Positions 1,256-30,247 of a DNA stretch of 42,156 bases are shown here, in pieces. The position numbers were made by a program, and so were the translations under genes. Below the pieces are notes generated by a model. The model did not search any database, was not told where the DNA came from, and worked only from the letters and a program-made list of their open reading frames with translations. The stretch is taken from positions 1 to 42,156 of the IMG/VR virus record IMGVR_UViG_3300014913_000026. One strand, given 5' to 3'. This DNA is from a virus. The first letter of the stretch is position 1; the number at the start of each line of letters is the position of its first letter.

Positions 1256-2329
1256 ATGATAATAATAAGCGGTTGCCCTCGAAGCGGTACAAGTTTGATG
1301 ATGGATATAATGCGTGAAACATTCGGAGAAAAACGCATATTAGGTAAGAAATTCCCACAAGACCAAAAAATAAAATATTACAATAATCAAGCTCCAAAAG
1401 AGACAAATGGACAGTACGATATAAGAAAATACAAGCAAGAACTAAATGAAAGAAAAAGCGGTATTAACCCCGTGAAAGATTTTGAAGAAACAAAAGATAT
1501 GAATCCAAATGGGTTTTGGGAGATGCTTTATACCGTCCAAGGCTGTTTTTATCGATTCAAAGATGCAAACAACTTAGAAATATTATTGAAAGAAAAAGAA
1601 AAAAGTATATGTAAAATCGTATCGCAAGGATTAATAAATTCAGATCCTCAATATATCGATAAAATAATATATATGATTAGACATCCCCGAGCCGTTGCAA
1701 AGTCACAAGAAAGGCTAAAAAGGAATTTACCGAGCTTTCAGACAGAAAAAGGAATAAAGCATCTTGAAGATGAAGTAACAATACACAGCCCCGAAATGTA
1801 CATTAATGTGACAATTCAGGCTGCGAAGTGGCTATTAAAGTATAAAAACAAAGAGGTTTTATTTCTTCATTTTGAGGATTTATTAGAACAGCCTGAAAAA
1901 GAATTAAAGAGAGTTCAGAGCTTTTTAAATGAGGGAGATTTCACGGAGTCGATAAAAAGAATTAACCCGAAGCTACGGAGAAGTTACCCGCAAGATGTAA
2001 AAAATAATTACTGGGAGATTTCAGAAAAGATATATAAAGCCTTTTCGGAAAAAGATTATAGAAAGGTTATATCTTTTCAAACAGAATATAGCAAATTAAA
2101 ACAAGATACAGAAAAAAGCTGGTTTTGTGAAAGAGTTAATAGAATGACTTACACCACAGGTTGCAAAAGTTGCTATAGTGACGCAAGAGTAAAAAAAAGA
2201 CTTGCTAAATCAGCAACGGAAAGAGGCATAAACTGGGAAAATCTACCTTGTTTGTATGAATGCGAAAACAAAGGAATTAGCATCAAGGACAGTATTAAAA
2301 ACAATAACTGGATGGTTGAAGATGAATAA
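1256..2329 (+). CDS. PAPS-dependent sulfotransferase family protein
   Basis: A 357-residue protein preceded by AAAGGA. The N-terminus has the sulfotransferase 5'-phosphosulfate loop (GCPRSGTSLMMDI, residues 6-18). A second motif, IYMIRHPRAVAKSQ (about 138-151), matches the 3'-phosphate-binding segment, where Arg and Ser contact PAPS. Family members move the sulfuryl group of 3'-phosphoadenylyl sulfate to a hydroxyl of a glycan, protein or small molecule. The C-terminal 70 residues add an unusual Cys-rich tail (WFC, GCKSC, PCLYEC) that may bind metal. The stop codon overlaps the start of an APS-kinase gene that could make the donor. Lying among tail genes, it may sulfate a virion protein or a host surface glycan; the acceptor is unknown. 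Confidence 0.8.
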   Translation: MIIISGCPRSGTSLMMDIMRETFGEKRILGKKFPQDQKIKYYNNQAPKETNGQYDIRKYKQELNERKSGINPVKDFEETKDMNPNGFWEMLYTVQGCFYRFKDANNLEILLKEKEKSICKIVSQGLINSDPQYIDKIIYMIRHPRAVAKSQERLKRNLPSFQTEKGIKHLEDEVTIHSPEMYINVTIQAAKWLLKYKNKEVLFLHFEDLLEQPEKELKRVQSFLNEGDFTESIKRINPKLRRSYPQDVKNNYWEISEKIYKAFSEKDYRKVISFQTEYSKLKQDTEKSWFCERVNRMTYTTGCKSCYSDARVKKRLAKSATERGINWENLPCLYECENKGISIKDSIKNNNWMVEDE

Positions 2330-2816
2330 CACAATATGGCTGATTGGCAGACCTTGCGCAGGGAAAACGACGATTTCAGAGGCAATTAAACACAATGCGA
2401 TTAGACTTGACGGGGACGTTCTCAGAAAAGGCTTGAATTCAGATTTAGGCTTTTCTATTGAAGACAGGAGCGAGAATTTAAGACGAGTTGCAGAAATATC
2501 GAAAATATTCAACGATAACGGACATGATGTAATTTGCTCTTTTGTCACTCCTTGCGAATTACAGAGAAGATTACTAGCATCAATTAACCCTTGTATTAAT
2601 TTTGTTAATGTATATTGTAGCCTTGAAATAGCCATAAAAAGAGACGTTAAAGGAATGTATAAAAAAGCTTTAAGAGGTGAAATAAAAGACTTTACGGGCA
2701 TAGATTCGGTTTACGAAGAACCTCTCCAAAGCATTTTGAAACTTGACACAGAAACGCAAACTATACAAGTATGTGCAGCAATATTAACAAATTATATAAA
2801 ATGGTGCAAAAAATGA
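2322..2816 (+). CDS. cysC: adenylylsulfate (APS) kinase-like protein
   Basis: A 164-residue P-loop kinase. The Walker A is GRPCAGKTT (residues 8-16). The APS-kinase signature is very clear: LDGDVLRKGLNSDLGFS followed by IEDRSENLRRVAEI. A second family hallmark, KGMYKKALRGEIKDFTGID then SVYEEP, lies near the C-terminus. APS kinase phosphorylates the 3'-OH of adenylyl sulfate to make PAPS, the sulfotransferase donor. It is shorter than typical CysC (about 200 residues), missing the usual N-terminal lead-in. I chose the ATG at 2322, which puts the P-loop at the usual distance and overlaps the sulfotransferase stop by 8 nt; an upstream in-frame ATG at 2256 is less likely. No ATP sulfurylase is present, so APS would come from the host. 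Confidence 0.87.
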   Translation: MNNTIWLIGRPCAGKTTISEAIKHNAIRLDGDVLRKGLNSDLGFSIEDRSENLRRVAEISKIFNDNGHDVICSFVTPCELQRRLLASINPCINFVNVYCSLEIAIKRDVKGMYKKALRGEIKDFTGIDSVYEEPLQSILKLDTETQTIQVCAAILTNYIKWCKK

Positions 2817-7515: not shown

Positions 7516-7770
7516 ATGGATGTAGTAATTGCAATATCTGCATCTGTAGTTTCAGGTGTTATTCTTGTTGCTGTTCGTTTTTCGGTTGCTCAATATACAA
7601 AATTGAGTACCGAATTAAACGAGGTGAAATCTGAAGTGCTGAAGACTCTCACGAAAATCGCAGAACAGAACATGGAGTTCCATGAGAAGTTTATAAATGA
7701 GAATACATTCAAGGAACGAGTGGAAAATATCATTCATAAACATTGCGATAACTGCAGGCATAATAAATGA
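7516..7770 (+). CDS. small membrane protein with coiled coil (holin-like or accessory)
   Basis: An 84-residue protein with one N-terminal transmembrane helix (residues 3-24), then a heptad-rich segment (TELNEVKSEVLKTLTKIAEQ) and a C-terminal His/Cys patch (HKHCDNCRHNK). This layout resembles XhlA/haemolysin-like accessory lysis proteins, except that their membrane segment is usually C-terminal. It overlaps the receiver-domain gene by 4 nt. A lysis-membrane role is plausible from position near the end of the late block but unproven. Confidence 0.55.
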   Translation: MDVVIAISASVVSGVILVAVRFSVAQYTKLSTELNEVKSEVLKTLTKIAEQNMEFHEKFINENTFKERVENIIHKHCDNCRHNK

Positions 7771-8141
7771 AGATTTTACATATTGAAGACAATATATATA
7801 CTGCGGAATCGTTTAGAAAACTTATCGGAATTTACGAACCTGAATGGGAAATTATCCATTCAGAAAGTGTATTAAAAGCTTTTGAGAAACTGAATACAGA
7901 AAAATTTGATATTGCAGTTATTGATTTTCATCTAGACCGTATATTCAAAGGATACGAGCTTAAAAGTGTATTAATGAGGTTGAACACGCCTTATTTATAT
8001 TATTCGGCAGAAACGGAAGAAAACATAAGGGAAAAGGACAAAACAGGACGGTATATATCAAAAATTAAAACAGATATTGAATTAATCCCTGTATTGATTG
8101 CAAATTTTTACTATGAGGCTCAAAATGTTAGAACCAAATGA
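7767..8141 (+). CDS. stand-alone response-regulator receiver domain
   Basis: A 124-residue protein spanning a single CheY-like receiver domain. The acidic pocket is E7-D8 (KILHIEDN), the phospho-acceptor is D53 (DIAVIDFHLD), the switch Ser is S80 (YYSAE) and the conserved Lys is K99 (RYISKIK). All catalytic positions are present, so it could accept phosphate from a host histidine kinase. There is no output domain. Phage-encoded isolated receivers are uncommon; it sits between two membrane-associated small genes in the late block and might rewire host signalling or act as a phosphate sink. ATGA coupling to the upstream gene. Confidence 0.8.
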   Translation: MKILHIEDNIYTAESFRKLIGIYEPEWEIIHSESVLKAFEKLNTEKFDIAVIDFHLDRIFKGYELKSVLMRLNTPYLYYSAETEENIREKDKTGRYISKIKTDIELIPVLIANFYYEAQNVRTK

Positions 8142-14369: not shown

Positions 14370-14441
14370 TCAGATTACCAGTTTATCTTTTTCCGTTTCA
14401 AATTCTCCATCGACTCCTGAAATTCTTTGTTTAATTTGCAT
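14370..14441 (-). CDS. possible 23-residue peptide
   Basis: A short ORF (MQIKQRISGVDGEFETEKDKL then VI) with a good ribosome site, GGAAGG, 8 nt before the ATG, inside the last codons of the LpoB-like gene. It fills most of an otherwise empty 95-nt gap. Size alone makes this uncertain. Confidence 0.35.
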   Translation of the reverse strand: MQIKQRISGVDGEFETEKDKLVI

Positions 14442-15153
14442 TTTGTGACCTTCCAATTAAATATTTATTACGGTTTTTTTGTATTTCTTTTTCCTCCGCC
14501 CATTCATCAATTCCAGTTCGAATATTTTTTAGGTTCATTGTAATTTTATAGTACACGTCTTTTTTAGAACCTGATTCTTGTACTATTTCGATGAATGAGC
14601 CAGTCAAAAGATATTCAGCTCCGACATGTTCCCCAAATGACTGAACGGTCGAAAGATCAACAAGTCCGCTGTCTCTTTGATATTTCAGTTCGGCGATTGC
14701 CTCCTGATCAGTGAGACGATTTATAAAACGAAATTTACCAGACTGGATAAGCTTGGTTTTTATACTGTCTGTCAGACTGGCAAGATCTATTTGCTGCATT
14801 GTTTTATTTTTTATTTTGCTTACTGAAATAACAGGCCTTCTTTTACTGGTCAATTCAATTAAAGGTGGAAATTTCAGCATAGAATCCACCATTCCGGTAG
14901 TTATTTTTTTCAGATCAGAAGAATTAAAATCGGTTGATAAAAGTTGATTTGGTCTTTCATCACCATGCTTTATACTCCTTTTTTGGCATTTTTTACATTC
15001 GGACTCTATGTGAACCGCCCAGCTTTTGAAAACATACATAGTATGTCCTGTCAATAGATCCCTGCGTTCATACAATCGAATTGTTTTCGGTATTTCTATT
15101 TCCGTACATGACGAAAATAAAAAAGAAAATAGTACAACAATCAGTAATTTCAT
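14431..15153 (-). CDS. LpoB-like lipoprotein (PBP-activator family) fused to a phage lipoprotein N-terminus
   Basis: A 240-residue protein. Residues 1-16 are a lipoprotein signal with lipobox FSSC (Cys16). Residues 17-60 are nearly the same as those of the separate 61-residue lipoprotein at 15336-15521. From about residue 75 the sequence matches LpoB: RPVISVSKIKNKTMQQIDL, SLTDSIKTKLIQSGKFRFI, GLVDLSTVQSFGEHVGAEYL, LTGSF and DVYYKITMNL, ending EWAEEKEIQK. LpoB in enterobacteria is an outer-membrane lipoprotein that reaches through the periplasm to stimulate PBP1b. A phage copy could alter cell-wall synthesis during infection. The junction lies at a sequence element repeated nearby, so it looks like a gene fusion. 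Confidence 0.82.
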   Translation of the reverse strand: MKLLIVVLFSFLFSSCTEIEIPKTIRLYERRDLLTGHTMYVFKSWAVHIESECKKCQKRSIKHGDERPNQLLSTDFNSSDLKKITTGMVDSMLKFPPLIELTSKRRPVISVSKIKNKTMQQIDLASLTDSIKTKLIQSGKFRFINRLTDQEAIAELKYQRDSGLVDLSTVQSFGEHVGAEYLLTGSFIEIVQESGSKKDVYYKITMNLKNIRTGIDEWAEEKEIQKNRNKYLIGRSQNAN

Positions 15154-15245
15154 AAATCATTCCTCCTTTTTTGGCATTTTGGCAAATATTTAAAGTCATA
15201 ATGATGCTCTATTTTTACTTCAATCGGTTTATTTTCGTCTTGCAT
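15150..15245 (-). pseudogene. rusA remnant (about 25 codons) forming a 31-residue ORF
   Basis: The peptide contains ENKPIEVKIEHHYDFKYLPK followed by CQKRRNDL; the first 23 residues match RusA residues 49-71 with few changes. Catalytic Asp residues are absent, so it cannot be active. It starts at an ATG at 15245 and ends by ATGA overlap with the LpoB-like gene, so it may now act only as a translational coupler. Confidence 0.75.
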
Positions 15246-15333
15246 GCTTAATCCTCATTTTTGCTTTTTTCACACACTGATAATCTGCCCATAATGAAAA
15301 AACTAAAAAAAATAAAACAATAATCAATATCAT
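15229..15333 (-). CDS. 34-residue single-pass membrane peptide
   Basis: A strong ribosome site (GGGAGG) precedes an ATG at 15333. The peptide starts with a hydrophobic helix (MILIIVLFFLVFSLW) and ends with a basic tail (KKAKMRIKHARRK), typical of small inner-membrane phage peptides. It directly follows the short lipoprotein gene, so the pair could act together at the envelope. Function unknown. Confidence 0.55.
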   Translation of the reverse strand: MILIIVLFFLVFSLWADYQCVKKAKMRIKHARRK

Positions 15334-15335
15334 TT

Positions 15336-15521
15336 TCAATCCTCCCTTTTTTGGCATTTTTTACATTTGGACTCTATATGAACCGCCCAGCGTCTAGAAA
15401 CGTATATAGTATGTCCTGTCAATAGATCCCTGCGTTCATACAATCGAACGGCTTTCGGTATTTCTATTTCCGTACATGACGAAAATAAAAAAGAAAATAG
15501 TACAACAATCAGTAATTTCAT
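15336..15521 (-). CDS. short lipoprotein, parent of the LpoB-fusion N-terminus
   Basis: A 61-residue protein with signal MKLLIVVLFSFLFSS and lipobox Cys16. The mature part, about 45 residues, ends KCKKCQKRED. It differs from the first 60 residues of the LpoB-like protein by about ten substitutions. AAGGAGGA lies at the right distance before the ATG. A small outer-membrane lipoprotein next to a small membrane peptide recalls spanin-like pairs, but this block is expressed from the early strand. Function unknown. Confidence 0.65.
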   Translation of the reverse strand: MKLLIVVLFSFLFSSCTEIEIPKAVRLYERRDLLTGHTIYVSRRWAVHIESKCKKCQKRED

Positions 15522-15524
15522 AAA

Positions 15525-15947
15525 TCATTCCTCCTTTTTTGGCATTTCTAAAACATTAACATAAATCCTAATAAAATTCCCATCTGCATAAAACTTTCTT
15601 GATAAACAAGATACTATTAAGCTATCATCTTTCCACACTTCACCCGTCAGCGCATCAACTACCCCTTTGTTCAGATTGTCGCTCACATCAGGTCTTGTAA
15701 TCTTCGGAAATCCTCCATTTTCCAAAGCGTTTAATTTTTGCCATTTCGGTAAATTTTTAAAATCGTATTGATGCTCTATTTTAATTTCAATCGGTTTATT
15801 TTCGATCACTTGAAAATTTGAATATTGCTTGCGAAAAGAATACTTTATTCTTGCTTTGAACAGCTTAACATCTTTTTTTTGATAGATGTTTTTCCCGAAC
15901 CTGACCGATTGTACAGGTTTTGGTTTTAATGGAATTGTGATTATCAT
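15525..15947 (-). CDS. rusA: RusA-family Holliday junction resolvase
   Basis: A 140-residue protein, close to the family's usual 120-140. The catalytic segment RPDVSDNLNKGVVDALTG then EVWKDDSLI (residues 86-111) carries the conserved acidic residues Asp90, Asp98 and Asp107/108, and a basic N-terminal part binds DNA. RusA cleaves four-way junctions as a homodimer, here probably resolving recombination intermediates made by the RecT/exonuclease system. Its last codons contain the AAGGAGGA ribosome site of the lipoprotein gene downstream. Confidence 0.92.
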   Translation of the reverse strand: MIITIPLKPKPVQSVRFGKNIYQKKDVKLFKARIKYSFRKQYSNFQVIENKPIEIKIEHQYDFKNLPKWQKLNALENGGFPKITRPDVSDNLNKGVVDALTGEVWKDDSLIVSCLSRKFYADGNFIRIYVNVLEMPKKEE

Positions 15948-17633: not shown

Positions 17634-18367
17634 AATTCCCATCCTTCTGTTCGTTGTTTTTGCCCCGCAATAAAAATAATATTCCGCCACAGTTTATTTT
17701 TCGGGTTAATCCATCCTTCAAAATTTTTTCTAAATTGCAAATCAGGAGTAGATGCTACGTAATCTTTTATTTTTGCTGAAATTTCATTTTTATCTTTTTC
17801 GGTAAGCATTTTCCAATAGTTCAATGCCTTTGTTTTTGTTCCTTTTCTCTCGTACATTTTCCATGCATTTTCAAATTCCAAATCAACGGCAACATGTTTT
17901 TTATTTTCTTTATTCTCCTTATTATAGTTATTACTTGTGGTTATCTGTTGGTTATCTGTTGGTTTTCTGTTGGTTTTCTGTTGGTTATCTGTTGGTTGGC
18001 AAGATTGATAAGTACCGTAATTACAAATGGTTAGGCTGGTTGTTTTTCGCAAGCCTTTTATAGCAATCATAGAATCTTTTTCTAACAAATTAAAAAATGT
18101 CCTGACTTTTTGCCGAGTCCACTTATTCCCGAATATTAGCATCCAAGAGTTCACAGAACGCAAACTTTCACCTTTTTTGCATTCGAGAAGTTCACCGTCT
18201 ATTACAACTTTTGAATCCTCAAAATTAACCCCCAATAACATTGTTATCCACGCTTTCAAATATAAAGGATTTTTAAAAATCCAGTGATCTTGAATCTGTC
18301 TATGAATGCTTATCCAGCCAGATATTTTAGACGATTGTTTTGGTAATGGTTTTTCTGTAGTTATCAT
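17630..18367 (-). CDS. replisome organiser / origin-binding replication protein
   Basis: A 245-residue protein of the phage replication-initiator type. The N-terminus (GWISIHRQIQDHWIFKNPLY) is a common start in Gram-positive and other phage initiators, followed by a winged-helix-like region (WTRQKVRTFFNLLEKDSMI). A low-complexity linker (QPTDNQQKTNRKPTDNQQ) is encoded by 11-bp DNA iterons. The C-terminal domain (FENAWKMYERKGTKTKALNYW) resembles the helix-loader interaction region of DnaD-like proteins. It would melt the origin lying within its own gene and recruit the DnaC-like loader next door. Confidence 0.8.
   Translation of the reverse strand: MITTEKPLPKQSSKISGWISIHRQIQDHWIFKNPLYLKAWITMLLGVNFEDSKVVIDGELLECKKGESLRSVNSWMLIFGNKWTRQKVRTFFNLLEKDSMIAIKGLRKTTSLTICNYGTYQSCQPTDNQQKTNRKPTDNQQITTSNNYNKENKENKKHVAVDLEFENAWKMYERKGTKTKALNYWKMLTEKDKNEISAKIKDYVASTPDLQFRKNFEGWINPKNKLWRNIIFIAGQKQRTEGWEL
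17897..17993. other. candidate replication origin: five 11-bp iterons beside an AT-rich tract
   Basis: Five head-to-tail 11-bp units lie at 17939, 17950, 17961, 17972 and 17983: three GGTTATCTGTT and two GGTTTTCTGTT, then a partial sixth (GGTTGG). The adjacent 17897-17937 is almost all A/T and could be the unwinding element. The 11-bp period is not a multiple of 3, so the repeat is selected at the DNA level. Iterons inside the initiator gene mirror the lambda O/ori arrangement. Confidence 0.75.
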
Positions 18368-19320
18368 TTTTCAGACTCCATAAAATCAAATTCAAGTTGT
18401 TTATTTTCACAGGGAACATTTATATAATTTAAAACTTTCCGTATACCTAATTTATCCATGCAATATTTCCACTGTTTCGGATGAGTCTTTTGCATTAATT
18501 GAAATCTGTTTGGCTGTTTTTCGAGATGACAGCCGAACATGCAGAACATACAGCCCGTTCTTTTGTATCCCATATCATAGATTTTTGAATATGGAATGTT
18601 GTAATGTTTGATGTAATCCCAAATATCTTTTTCATTCCAAAACATCAACGGTCTAGATTGTGCAGATTTTAAATAAAAAGCATTGCAGGCATTTTTTAGA
18701 TAAGATTGAGTTCTTAATCTGCTTTCTCCTGCCATTGTGCCGACAAAAGGAACTCTTTTTGTTTTCATAAAAAATTTATGAGCTGGTCGTTTTTTCATAA
18801 CATCGCAACATTGCTCGGAAATTTTAATTTTATTTTGATCCATTAAATACTGCCATTTTTTAGAAACTGCTCCAACTCGATACCCATTCCTCCCATTAAT
18901 CATTCCCCTTCTTTTGTTTTCTGTGTATTTCGTTGTTCCGTTTTGAACTTCTCTGATGTATTTTGCCTGTTCCTTTGAAACAACAGGATAGCCATACTTC
19001 TCCAGAACCTGTTTAAAATTCATCTTAGGTTTAATTATCGTGACATTCTCACAACTCTTAATAAAGTCCACAATTTCGGGGAATTCAAGCCCTGTGTTGA
19101 TGAAAACAGAGGGAATAACACCACGTAAAATAGGATCATCTTTTATAGTTTCTTCAACGAGATGTTTTAAAACTGTTGAGTCTTTACCTCCTGAAAAAGA
19201 AATATAACAGCCATTAACTCCGAATTCTTTTACCCAAGCCTTAATTCTTTTTTTTGACATTGCGATTTTGCAAGGTAGTGATAACAGTTGTCTTGTTTTC
19301 AACATTTCAGTAGTAATCAT
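18364..19320 (-). CDS. PAPS-reductase-like PP-loop (adenine nucleotide alpha-hydrolase) protein
   Basis: A 318-residue protein with the PP-loop SFSGGKDSTVLKHLV (residues 41-55), which binds ATP or adenylyl sulfate. A Cys cluster, TGCMFCMFGCH, near residue 250 could hold an iron-sulfur cluster, unlike assimilatory CysH, which uses a C-terminal ECG motif that I do not see. Such proteins are common in phage early regions and some relatives act in DNA or tRNA sulfur chemistry (DndC/TtcA-type). It overlaps the initiator gene by 4 nt. A link to the sulfotransferase cassette is possible but not needed. Confidence 0.82.
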   Translation of the reverse strand: MITTEMLKTRQLLSLPCKIAMSKKRIKAWVKEFGVNGCYISFSGGKDSTVLKHLVEETIKDDPILRGVIPSVFINTGLEFPEIVDFIKSCENVTIIKPKMNFKQVLEKYGYPVVSKEQAKYIREVQNGTTKYTENKRRGMINGRNGYRVGAVSKKWQYLMDQNKIKISEQCCDVMKKRPAHKFFMKTKRVPFVGTMAGESRLRTQSYLKNACNAFYLKSAQSRPLMFWNEKDIWDYIKHYNIPYSKIYDMGYKRTGCMFCMFGCHLEKQPNRFQLMQKTHPKQWKYCMDKLGIRKVLNYINVPCENKQLEFDFMESEK

Positions 19321-26396: not shown

Positions 26397-26816
26397 AATA
26401 ATTTCCTTTTTTTAAATCAAACAAACAACTAACTAAACTAACCAAATCCCACCAGTTTAAACATCTTTAAAAGATATTGTATATACACGCCGTAGCGGTT
26501 TTTTTACCTCGTTACGCTTATCGAGGAGTTTTAAGCGTGTATTTTTTGATGATGAAATAAGGTTAATTGGCAAACATTAGGAGCTTGCCACACCTTAGAG
26601 CAAGACTTGTAAGGTCTTGCTTGCTTTCGGTAGGCACTTGATACAGTTTATGATTTTAACCCGCTACCCTTTTTTCTAGCCCTCTATTTCGGCAGGATGC
26701 TGGCAGATTATCGCCTGACTAGGGGAGTCACCCGCCAGATAAGCTCTGGCAACCTTGACGGGGAGGTTTTTAATCTCCCTTTTTTCAAAGAGCGTAACGA
26801 GGTTCCCCTTGTTACG
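26397..26816 (-). promoter_or_regulatory. about 420-nt structured untranslated leader of the leftward operon
   Basis: No ORF is evident. If transcription starts near 26815, the RNA begins with a 10-bp hairpin (26816-26793: CGTAACAAGG with CCTCGTTACG, one G-U pair). Part of it, ACCTCGTTACGCT (26803-26791), can instead pair with AGCGTAACGAGGT 285 nt away (26518-26506), a 13-bp perfect match. Other perfect stems are ATACACGC/GCGTGTAT (26483-26490, 26534-26541), GCAAGAC/GTCTTGC (26600-26620), GGCAA/TTGCC (26570-26590) and alternative GCCAG/CTGGC pairings (26700-26750). Long 5' leaders with hairpins near the start recall HK022 put-type antitermination RNAs. Confidence 0.5.
26760..26785 (+). terminator. 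rho-independent terminator, rightward
   Basis: GGGAG (26761-26765) pairs with CTCCC (26775-26779) around a 9-nt A/T loop, followed by six Ts. It would stop rightward RNA before the rightward promoter. A second hairpin followed by Ts (26483-26541, then TTTTT) lies upstream, so rightward RNA in the leader region, possibly an antisense RNA, would be limited. Confidence 0.55.
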
Positions 26817-26821
26817 TAATT

Positions 26822-26849
26822 ACTATACACCAGAATGTTTCTTTTGCAA
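26822..26849 (-). promoter_or_regulatory. predicted leftward sigma70-type promoter
   Basis: On the minus strand a -35 box TTGCAA (26849-26844) and a -10 box TATAGT (26827-26822) are separated by 16 bp, with a TG just before the -10. It would start RNA near 26815 at the base of the 10-bp hairpin and drive the whole leftward operon. Confidence 0.5.
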
Positions 26850-26894
26850 GCCGTTTTAATTTATTATTTAAAATAAATTAAAATAAATTAGCAA

Positions 26895-26923
26895 TTGAGA
26901 CATATATAATATATACATATAAT
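26895..26923 (+). promoter_or_regulatory. predicted rightward sigma70-type promoter
   Basis: TTGAGA (26895-26900), exactly 17 bp, then a perfect TATAAT (26918-26923). A/T-rich direct repeats (AAAATAAATT) upstream may act as an UP element. It would start RNA near 26930 and drive the genes from 26959. Confidence 0.65.
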
Positions 26924-26958
26924 AATGCTTTAATTTTTAATTTAAAAAGGTGGATATT

Positions 26959-27093
26959 ATGAGTGAAGACAAGAAAATTTACATACTGAGAGATAAAAAA
27001 GTAAAAAGAACAAGATTGACCCTGCAAAAGTTGAACAAAAGGATTAGAAAGATCGAAAAGGAGTTTTTTAAGGATCTGGAGGATGAAAAATGA
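26959..27093 (+). CDS. small basic coiled-coil protein (44 residues)
   Basis: Starts after AAAAAGGTGG. The product (MSEDKKIYILRDKKVKRTRL, then TLQKLNKRIRKIEKEFFKDL) is highly charged and helical. Its stop overlaps the next start (ATGA). First gene of the rightward transcript; probably a small regulator, not recognised. Confidence 0.55.
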   Translation: MSEDKKIYILRDKKVKRTRLTLQKLNKRIRKIEKEFFKDLEDEK

Positions 27094-27266
27094 ATGATGA
27101 AGAGAAACAAGATTTAGAAAAATATGTATTTTTGAAAAGAAAAGATTTAGCAACTTATATATATCTTGAAAAAATGTGTAAAAGTCAAATTGTAAAAACA
27201 AAATATCTGCAAAAAATGATAAAACGATTACGAAAACAATTAAAAGAATGTAACGTCAGCGAATAA
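27090..27266 (+). CDS. small basic helical protein (58 residues)
   Basis: ATGA-coupled to the preceding gene. Helical and basic (KRKDLATYIYLEKMCKSQIV, then KYLQKMIKRLRKQLKEC). Similar in character to its neighbour. Not recognised; possibly a regulator or protein-binding peptide. Confidence 0.55.
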   Translation: MNDEEKQDLEKYVFLKRKDLATYIYLEKMCKSQIVKTKYLQKMIKRLRKQLKECNVSE

Positions 27267-27283
27267 TAAAAAAAGGTTTTGCA

Positions 27284-27679
27284 ATGCCTCAAAAAAAAGA
27301 ATATAAATTATCAATACAGCATTTAGTTGATGATTTTGAGCAAGAAGCTGTTAACTCTAATTTTGCATGTGTTTTTGAATGTTTGTATTTATTTACAGAT
27401 ATCTCAAAAAAAACTGATAGATTAGCAGAAATGTTATTTTATTTTTTAGAGCTGCGATTATCTAAAAAAAACTATAGATTTTTCATGCTGATGGAAAAGC
27501 TGAATAATACGGATCGAACTTATTATTATTTCGCAAAAAAATATAATAAACCTCGGTCAACTATTCACTTCCATTTTCAGAAGTTTTTTAAAAAGTTTCC
27601 TGAATTAAAAAAGGTTTTGTATGTCGACAGACGGCATATAGGATGGATGCCTCAAAATAAGATAAATGAGCTTGAATAA
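27284..27679 (+). CDS. helix-turn-helix protein, possible late regulator
   Basis: A 131-residue protein. The C-terminal third contains TYYYFAKKYNKPRSTIHFHF then QKFFKKFPELKK, which reads like a helix-turn-helix with a recognition helix (PRSTIHFHFQKFF), similar in plan to sigma region 4 or ArpU-type phage activators. The N-terminal 80 residues are helical. Placed between the small early rightward genes and terminase, it could switch on late transcription. Family assignment is uncertain. Confidence 0.55.
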   Translation: MPQKKEYKLSIQHLVDDFEQEAVNSNFACVFECLYLFTDISKKTDRLAEMLFYFLELRLSKKNYRFFMLMEKLNNTDRTYYYFAKKYNKPRSTIHFHFQKFFKKFPELKKVLYVDRRHIGWMPQNKINELE

Positions 27680-27746
27680 AGGGTTTTTCAGGTGTATATT
27701 AACGTTTTAATTAATGCTAATATTAACCCTACACAAACGGATAAAA

Positions 27747-28571
27747 ATGAATAATTTTGATTTAGACCTTGACTTTGATTTTGACCTTGATTTTGATTTT
27801 GACGAGACAAAAAACGAACAGCGCATTTTCACGCCTCGCGAATACAAATATATATCGGATCGAGGGGTAAAATATAGACATGCCGAAAAAATGGCAAAAG
27901 AGATCGGATTAATCAGGAAAGGTGAGCGCCGTTTTTGTGTAATCGATGGCAGTTTTATATTTGGTGATTTTATTGAGGCTTGGATCGTCGAGAATAAAAT
28001 CAAGGTGAAAGAATTAACTATTTCAACGCTTTCTATGTCAGACGAAAATATCGACAGCCTCGCAAATTTATTACATTGCGACGATGTAGAGGAGCTTAAT
28101 CTTATTGTTTCAGATTCTTTTTATTCTCACGAGAGACATAATCTAATGCCTTATATTTATCAGGAACTAGACATAAAAAACAATTTTCAATTAGCAGTCG
28201 CTGGAGTGCATACAAAAATCTGTTTAATTAGCGATCATAACGGCAATTTCTGGACAATCCACGGCAGCGCAAATTTAAGAACTTCAAAAAACGTTGAGCA
28301 ATTCGTAATTGAAAACGACAAAGATTTATTTGATTTCAATCACGAGTGGCATCATAATATTATTGAAAAATATAAAACTATAAATAAAAGTGTGAGGTAT
28401 AAAAAATTATGGCAGGAGATAAAGGGAGTACCGGATCATCAGGCAAATACGGAGCAATCAACTCAGCCAGAAAAGCAAAAAAGGCAAAAACCGAAGCCAA
28501 AAAAAGAAGAGAAAAGCGACTTGATAAAAAATTCGGATTGCCTGGATTTTAACAAAGATTATGCTTTCTAA
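27747..28571 (+). CDS. phospholipase D-like domain protein next to terminase
   Basis: A 274-residue protein (start at 27747, after GGATAAAA; an in-frame ATG at 27714 is possible). It begins with an acidic low-complexity run, FDLDLDFDFDLDFDFDE, encoded by a TTGATT/TTGACC hexamer repeat. A single PLD catalytic motif is present: H155-x-K157 (HTKICLISD) and GSAN (173-176). PLD-type nucleases act as dimers when they have one motif. The C-terminal 40 residues are Lys/Pro/Gln-rich. Such proteins occur beside terminase genes in many phage-like elements; a DNA-processing role is plausible. Confidence 0.72.
   Translation: MNNFDLDLDFDFDLDFDFDETKNEQRIFTPREYKYISDRGVKYRHAEKMAKEIGLIRKGERRFCVIDGSFIFGDFIEAWIVENKIKVKELTISTLSMSDENIDSLANLLHCDDVEELNLIVSDSFYSHERHNLMPYIYQELDIKNNFQLAVAGVHTKICLISDHNGNFWTIHGSANLRTSKNVEQFVIENDKDLFDFNHEWHHNIIEKYKTINKSVRYKKLWQEIKGVPDHQANTEQSTQPEKQKRQKPKPKKEEKSDLIKNSDCLDFNKDYAF
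28409..28552 (+). CDS. overlapping small basic protein in another frame
   Basis: A 47-residue ORF wholly inside the end of the PLD-like gene, in another frame. The product (MAGDKGSTGSSGKYGAINSA, then RKAKKAKTEAKKRREKRLDK and KFGLPGF) looks like a designed nucleic-acid-binding tail with a structured end, and no SD is close by (GAGG is 11 nt away). The corresponding PLD C-terminus is low complexity, so dual coding is credible but unproven. Confidence 0.35.
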   Translation: MAGDKGSTGSSGKYGAINSARKAKKAKTEAKKRREKRLDKKFGLPGF

Positions 28572-28593
28572 AACTTAAAAAAGGAGGTCAAAA

Positions 28594-28938
28594 ATGCCTC
28601 GGTATACAGACGACGCAATTATCCTTGCAATGAAAGGATCAGCAGGAATAGTCCGAGAAATAGCGAAAAAACTAGGATGCCAACGGCAAACAGTAGTAGA
28701 GCGATTGAAAAACTCAAAAAAATTAAAAAAGGCACTCAAAAACGAAACAGAGAGCAGTGTCGATATATCAGAAATAGCCCTTTTGATGCTTGTCAGAGAT
28801 TTGAATTTTAATGCAATAAAATATCATCTTGATGCAAAAGGGAAAAGCAGAGGGTACGGAATCCAAAATATCAAACAAGAAATTAAACAAGATATCAAAC
28901 AAGAATCAATTAAAAAAATAGAGATAGAGATTGTATAA
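28594..28938 (+). CDS. terS: terminase small subunit-like HTH protein
   Basis: A 114-residue protein with a strong ribosome site (AAGGAGG). The N-terminus holds a helix-turn-helix (GIVREIAKKLGCQRQTVVER, residues 18-37) and the C-terminus is a helical oligomerisation-type segment with repeats (IKQEIKQDIKQESIKK). Small terminase subunits recognise packaging sites on the concatemer. It lies directly before the large subunit. A 21-bp near-perfect palindrome (28928-28948) spans its stop codon. Confidence 0.75.
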   Translation: MPRYTDDAIILAMKGSAGIVREIAKKLGCQRQTVVERLKNSKKLKKALKNETESSVDISEIALLMLVRDLNFNAIKYHLDAKGKSRGYGIQNIKQEIKQDIKQESIKKIEIEIV

Positions 28939-28948
28939 TATACAATCT
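28928..28948. other. stem-loop at terS/terL junction
   Basis: AGATTGTATA and TATACAATCT are perfect 10-bp arms around a single A, covering the terS stop codon and 19 nt before the terL start. It is A/T-rich without a T-run, so it is not a terminator; it might be an RNase III site or a translational control hairpin. Confidence 0.6.
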
Positions 28949-28966
28949 TTATCAAGTTAATAAGGT

Positions 28967-30247
28967 ATGAAAAATGGATTATTACAACTAAAAGGGACAA
29001 AAGTTTTTAAATGGATCTGGGAAAATCAAGACCAGCGAATTATTGCACTTGAAGGATCCAGCCGAAGTTCAAAGACTTTTTCTATACTTCAATACCTTAT
29101 CACTAGAGCAATCACCGAAAAACTTACTATAAAATGTTATCGGAGAAAAGCGACATGGTTAAAAGATTCCGTTATTGCTGACTTCTTCAAATGCCTTGAT
29201 ATTTGCTTTCCATTTTTAGAGGGCAGAGAGTCTCCAAATTACAACATAACTGACAAAATATATAGATTTGCGAACGGTTCTAAATTTCTTTTCGTTGGAA
29301 TGGACACACCACAAAAATCACACGGAGCAGAGCAACATATCGCCTGGTTCAATGAAGCAATAGAGGGGACATGGGAAAGTTATAAGCAAGTAGAGCAAAG
29401 AACGCTAAAGCAACTTATTCTTGACTGGAATCCCTCAGTAACTCAGCACTGGATCTTTGACAAAGTTTTAAATCAAGATATTTGCAATTACAACCATTCG
29501 ACATTCAAAGATAATATTAATTTTCTCCCTCATCACATAATCAACACACTATCAAGCTATGAGCCTACAGCGTACAATATAGCGCAAGGGACAGCAGACG
29601 AGAGACACTGGAAAATATACGGGCTTGGTATCAGATGCGCATTAGAGGGCGTAATATTCCCAGATGTCCGATTCGTCCGAGAAATGCCAGCTGTTGAACA
29701 TCGCAAATTTGAAGGGTACGGAATGGACTTTGGATTCATTCACCCCTCAGCCCTCATTCATTGCTGCCTCTTTGACGAGCAAATATATGTAGATGAAATA
29801 ATATATCAAGAGCAATTAACAAACCTGCATAACAATCAAGCACCGAGACAAAACTCATTACAAAAAGAATTTGAGCGGAAAAAAGTAAGCAAGAAGCTTG
29901 AAATAACAGCGGATTCCGCAAAGCCTGACACAATACAAGACATTCACAATCTCGGATATTTTATTAAGGGAGTTAATAAATTTGATAATTCGGTTGACTT
30001 CGGAATAAACACGCTGAAAAGATATATCATTAACATAACAGAAAGATCGTTAAATATCAAAAATGAAGCAGAGAATTACAAATGGGCTGAAGACAAAGAC
30101 GGCAAACAATTAGATGTTCCTGTGAAAAATTTCGATCACGCATGGGACGCAATCCGATACTGGGCACTTCGAAATTTAGCCAAACCGCAAAAAAGCTTTG
30201 TTATTGATGATACACCGCAAACACGGGGGACTTACGACGATTATTGA
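28967..30247 (+). CDS. terL: terminase large subunit
   Basis: A 426-residue packaging ATPase/nuclease. Walker A-like ALEGSSRSSKTFSILQYLI (residues 27-45) and Walker B WFNEAIEG (about 128-135) match the PBSX/Terminase_3 group. The C-terminal nuclease has YGMDFGF (Asp in strand 1), ITADSAKPD (second Asp) and DHAWDAIRYWA (third acidic site). It packages DNA into the procapsid through the portal encoded next. Confidence 0.93.
   Translation: MKNGLLQLKGTKVFKWIWENQDQRIIALEGSSRSSKTFSILQYLITRAITEKLTIKCYRRKATWLKDSVIADFFKCLDICFPFLEGRESPNYNITDKIYRFANGSKFLFVGMDTPQKSHGAEQHIAWFNEAIEGTWESYKQVEQRTLKQLILDWNPSVTQHWIFDKVLNQDICNYNHSTFKDNINFLPHHIINTLSSYEPTAYNIAQGTADERHWKIYGLGIRCALEGVIFPDVRFVREMPAVEHRKFEGYGMDFGFIHPSALIHCCLFDEQIYVDEIIYQEQLTNLHNNQAPRQNSLQKEFERKKVSKKLEITADSAKPDTIQDIHNLGYFIKGVNKFDNSVDFGINTLKRYIINITERSLNIKNEAENYKWAEDKDGKQLDVPVKNFDHAWDAIRYWALRNLAKPQKSFVIDDTPQTRGTYDDY

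Follow-up and report, generated by a model that had tools for sequence, protein, structure and literature searches.

What is the protein that is encoded at 14431-15153 on the minus strand of this phage, and is it an activator of a PBP, as the initial annotation proposed? The window is the whole virus record, 42,156 bases. Genes for terminase, portal, protease, major head, tape-measure and Mu Gp36-like proteins are on the plus strand; those for RecT, an exonuclease, DnaD- and DnaC-like loaders, RusA and DNA methyltransferases are on the minus strand. The open reading frame (ORF) has an ATG start and an intact frame of 240 aa, and sits in the replication/recombination block, next to RusA; the structural genes are on the other strand. 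Its coordinates had been annotated exactly, and the peptides quoted with them are found in the translation. The following features are referred to below.

14431..15153, minus strand: hybrid lipoprotein gene, 240 aa; leader residues 1-60 fused to LpoB domain, residues 80-224
14482..14916, minus strand: LpoB domain PF13036, 147/147, free of stops
14974..15153, minus strand: leader, residues 1-60; duplicate of the 61-aa ORF
15106..15138, minus strand: lipobox VVLFSFLFSSC; fits a PS00013-type pattern; Thr after Cys16
15162..15167, minus strand: Shine-Dalgarno AGGAGG, 8 nt upstream of the hybrid ATG
15168..15237, minus strand: RusA gene fragment, duplication relic; 87% to 15735-15804
15229..15333, minus strand: small hydrophobic ORF (MILIIVLFFLVF...), between the 61-aa leader gene and the fusion
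15336..15521, minus strand: ORF of 61 aa for a small lipoprotein, the leader's sister copy; has an AGGAGG of its own
15525..15947, minus strand: RusA-like Holliday junction resolvase; upstream gene, same block as the hybrid

We are confident that the hybrid is an LpoB-domain lipoprotein. Residues 80-224 were matched to Pfam PF13036 (LpoB) over 147/147 positions (E 1.2e-44, 152.1 bits; curated cut-off 22.3 bits), and the NCBIfam equivalog TIGR02722 'LpoB' gave 154.5 bits (cut-off 110.55). In a seven-sequence AlphaFold model, mostly confident within the predicted domain (block pLDDT about 68-92), the best solved match was the C-terminal domain of E. coli LpoB (PDB 4q6z; Z 13.6, 120 residues, rmsd 3.1), which is the outcome of the structure comparison that the initial annotation had suggested as a check. 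The lipoprotein signal, a lipobox with Cys16, is supplied by the phage leader. The descriptions 'LpoB-like' and 'phage-encoded' are upheld, and Pfam, NCBIfam and the predicted fold agree on the LpoB domain.

A CsgG/PelC/GNA1162-type lipoprotein unrelated to LpoB is a most unlikely reading. CsgG and PelC have the same general fold, and the CsgG profile (PF03783) does reach 18.8 bits (E 0.001), but this is under its curated cut-off of 20.8 and far from the 152 bits of LpoB; in the fold comparison the next family was PelC (Z 8.1), with the LpoB structures ahead by about 5 Z units. Lipoproteins of this type have a general fold in common with the hybrid, whereas their sequence and fold scores are clearly weaker, and the assignment to a CsgG-like family that had been named as a refutation was not obtained.

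The close match to LpoB claimed for the C-terminal residues holds at family level; it does not hold for E. coli LpoB itself (YcfM; PDB 4q6z, 2mii), which is 25% identical over 79 aa. The two proteins have in common the complete domain, the fold and the lipobox, and their tethers from Cys to domain are of similar length (63 residues in the hybrid, 58 in E. coli); they differ in the tether itself, a Pro-rich linker in E. coli and a phage leader here, and the hybrid is phage-encoded and has no known PBP1B/UB2H partner. Among cellular proteins the closest found, at 55% identity, come from a PVC-group metagenome-assembled genome (L004) and a second genome of the same phylum (G197); others are 44-52% identical. 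Such lipoproteins of the LpoB family, from the PVC group and other bacteria (L004, L023, L007, L009), resemble the hybrid over the whole domain (44-55%) and in their invariant residues: 22 positions do not vary among 18 cellular relatives, and the phage protein has the same residue at 21 of these, E. coli LpoB at 12. They differ from it in having their own signal peptide, a tether of mostly 21-29 residues and operon partners. In L004 the LpoB-family gene follows a DUF1425/YcfL gene, an arrangement as in E. coli, whereas the phage gene has a phage leader and is without a ycfL/DUF1425-type partner alongside. In the tree, the position of the phage protein was unresolved, on a long branch (1.2).

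Likeness to cellular proteins begins at about residue 62 (14970). Residues 1-60, on which the initial annotation was silent, are not LpoB; this stretch, which includes the signal peptide and lipobox, is an 87% aa copy of the neighbouring 61-aa ORF. The copies belong to a direct repeat of 203 nt with 95% DNA identity (hybrid-side copy at 14977-15179), and the two leader copies differ by at least 7 amino-acid changes as against 2 silent ones. A piece of RusA was copied as well (15168-15237 from 15735-15804); the repeat spacings differ (567 and 368), so some 199 nt of RusA must be missing from the second copy. A motif, GCCAAAAAAGG, running into the ribosome-binding site, is present four times at the joints (14987, 15175, 15355 and 15543, minus strand), i.e., at the leader/LpoB joint, ahead of the fusion ORF, at the end of the 61-aa ORF and at the end of RusA, and these repeats were apparently the substrate of local rearrangement. 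The simplest history, reconstructed from the arrangement of the repeats, would begin with a tandem duplication, after which a deletion took place and LpoB DNA was joined on at a GCCAAAAAAGG repeat.

The joint aligns with the start of the mature part of the cellular homologues (phage SIKHGDE; cellular TKVQYGDAT). The phage leader therefore took the place of the cellular signal peptide, with the lipobox kept. The added part of the tether lacks Pro enrichment and has low confidence in the model, so its E. coli-like length may be coincidence.

A neutral passenger, i.e., host DNA captured by chance into a region shuffled by short repeats and functionless so far, must be weighed at this point and is considered unlikely, with an appreciable chance all the same. 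The rearrangement is evident, with RusA debris adjoining; the changes between the leader copies are mostly at the amino-acid level, as given above; and the gene occurs once in the collections searched. Because no second phage copy was found, there is no means of showing that the fusion is under selection, and the gene may be a recent neutral capture. Against this reading, the 240-codon frame is intact, with its AGGAGG Shine-Dalgarno and the lipobox retained; 21 of the 22 clade-invariant residues are kept; and the G+C content is like that of the rest of the phage, so the gene is not a fresh high-G+C insert.

Scans of viral_contigs with the protein, an LpoB alignment and two back-translated motifs gave no other viral copy, these pattern scans detecting near relatives only, with distant viral LpoBs beyond their reach; INPHARED at E up to 10 and the BFVD folds gave no other phage LpoB copy, and no paper on a phage LpoB was found in the literature. 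The hybrid is thus the sole viral LpoB-family protein found in the collections searched here. Two matches to the back-translated motifs (L078, L079) lie inside unrelated long ORFs and were rejected as chance; the plasmid match proved to be an Aeromonas record of 4.9 Mb, clearly chromosomal. Scans with the leader, RusA and the DnaC-like gene gave no syntenic relatives. Searches for the host with terminase and RecT gave distant matches only (33-37%), with the exception of L077 (IMGVR_UViG_3300021471_000168), a related-phage fragment with 80-85% DNA identity that covers only 26404-29742.

Does the domain activate a PBP? E. coli LpoB acts on PBP1B by docking on its UB2H domain (PMC3060616, PMC6220978), and reaches PBP1B by means of a long disordered tether (PMC6220978); both LpoB and UB2H have been described as restricted to enterobacteria (PMC3060616). 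The PBP context was surveyed in 13 genomes with near LpoB relatives. PF00905 transpeptidases are present in all 13. The class A PBP glycosyltransferase (PF00912) is absent from six, which are genomes of unstated completeness, several of them metagenome-assembled. Alcanivorax is the single genome in which one frame holds both UB2H and a glycosyltransferase domain. In most genomes the UB2H matches fall in long frames that have no such domain; these matches are presumably UvrB/Mfd-type domains. LpoB-family genes are present, and no class A PBP was found, in G197, G292, G210, G137, G057 and G115.

With class A PBPs missing from 6/13 and a UB2H-PBP in 1/13, membership of the LpoB family in this clade does not imply a PBP1B function. 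A true PBP activator, whose domain would bind a host class A PBP and raise peptidoglycan synthesis, with the long phage tether supplying the reach that E. coli LpoB has from its disordered linker, is rather improbable. The closest fold is that of E. coli LpoB, the tether lengths are similar (63 and 58), and class A PBPs are present in 7/13 of the near-relative genomes; yet the docking domain is joined to such a PBP in only one of them, the sequence of E. coli LpoB is remote both in overall identity and in the clade-invariant residues (12/22 as against 21/22 in the phage), and LpoB and UB2H have been described as enterobacterial (PMC3060616). The earlier name 'PBP activator' is not supported and should give way to 'LpoB-domain lipoprotein'. 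The label 'PBP activator LpoB', applied to the whole family in profile libraries, is itself unsafe as a statement of function outside enterobacteria, since several carriers are without a class A PBP.

A more specific form of PBP engagement, quite improbable in our estimation, is that the leader and the captured short-tether domain together make an outer-membrane lipoprotein of long reach, similar in geometry to E. coli LpoB, that engages an inner-membrane peptidoglycan synthase of the host. If true, the hybrid would be a viral wall-synthesis regulator of independent origin.

Preparation of lysis had also been put forward. The protein would sequester a host PBP or regulator by titration and weaken the wall before lysis, and there is a precedent in LpoA, whose titration with its docking domain lyses PBP1A-dependent E. 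coli (PMC3060616). The absence of a recognisable endolysin, to which the initial annotation had drawn attention, was confirmed among the ORFs scanned with PHROGs, Pfam and NCBIfam, with some small ORFs outside the scan, and is compatible with such a role; but the majority of the phage ORFs are without assignment, so a lysis gene is likely to have gone unrecognised and the missing endolysin is weak evidence for a lysis role of the hybrid. The same PBP problem applies here (UB2H-class A PBP in 1/13, class A PBP missing in 6/13), and the gene is in the replication/recombination block by RusA, away from the structural genes and on the opposite strand. Lysis preparation is weakly disfavoured by this placement and, taken with the rest, very doubtful.

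The reading that we prefer, tentatively and at somewhat less than even chance, is that the hybrid is an envelope-acting competitor of, or substitute for, the host LpoB-family lipoprotein. The sequence shows that the leader of a small phage lipoprotein was copied, ribosome-binding site included, by a local duplication, and that this copy continues in frame into the mature part of an LpoB-family lipoprotein of bacterial, ycfL/DUF1425-adjacent type, the bacterial signal peptide being swapped out and the tether lengthened from about 22 to 63 residues. The product is predicted to be exported and lipidated, and its probable destination is the outer membrane, on the periplasmic side (Thr after Cys, not Asp). 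It would be made alongside the replication/recombination genes, not the virion genes, and may substitute for or compete with the LpoB-family lipoprotein of the host, altering the envelope during infection. Its partner is more likely whatever the LpoB of this bacterial clade normally binds than a PBP1b-type synthase. The hybrid records a route by which a phage can come by an envelope protein: a leader and ribosome-binding site are duplicated, and a captured periplasmic domain is joined in frame.

Other features of the phage are as follows. Genes for a sulfotransferase (PF00685) and an APS kinase (PF01583) overlap at 1256-2816 (plus strand), the sulfotransferase having no match in INPHARED; a PAPS-reductase-like gene is at 18364-19320 in the minus-strand block. 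It may be that PAPS is made by the phage and used to sulfate some substrate. A 124-aa ORF at 7767-8141 (plus strand) is like a response-regulator receiver domain, under the Pfam cut-off. An 11-nt tandem repeat (TATCTGTTGGT) is present at 17931-17996, within the DnaD-like gene.
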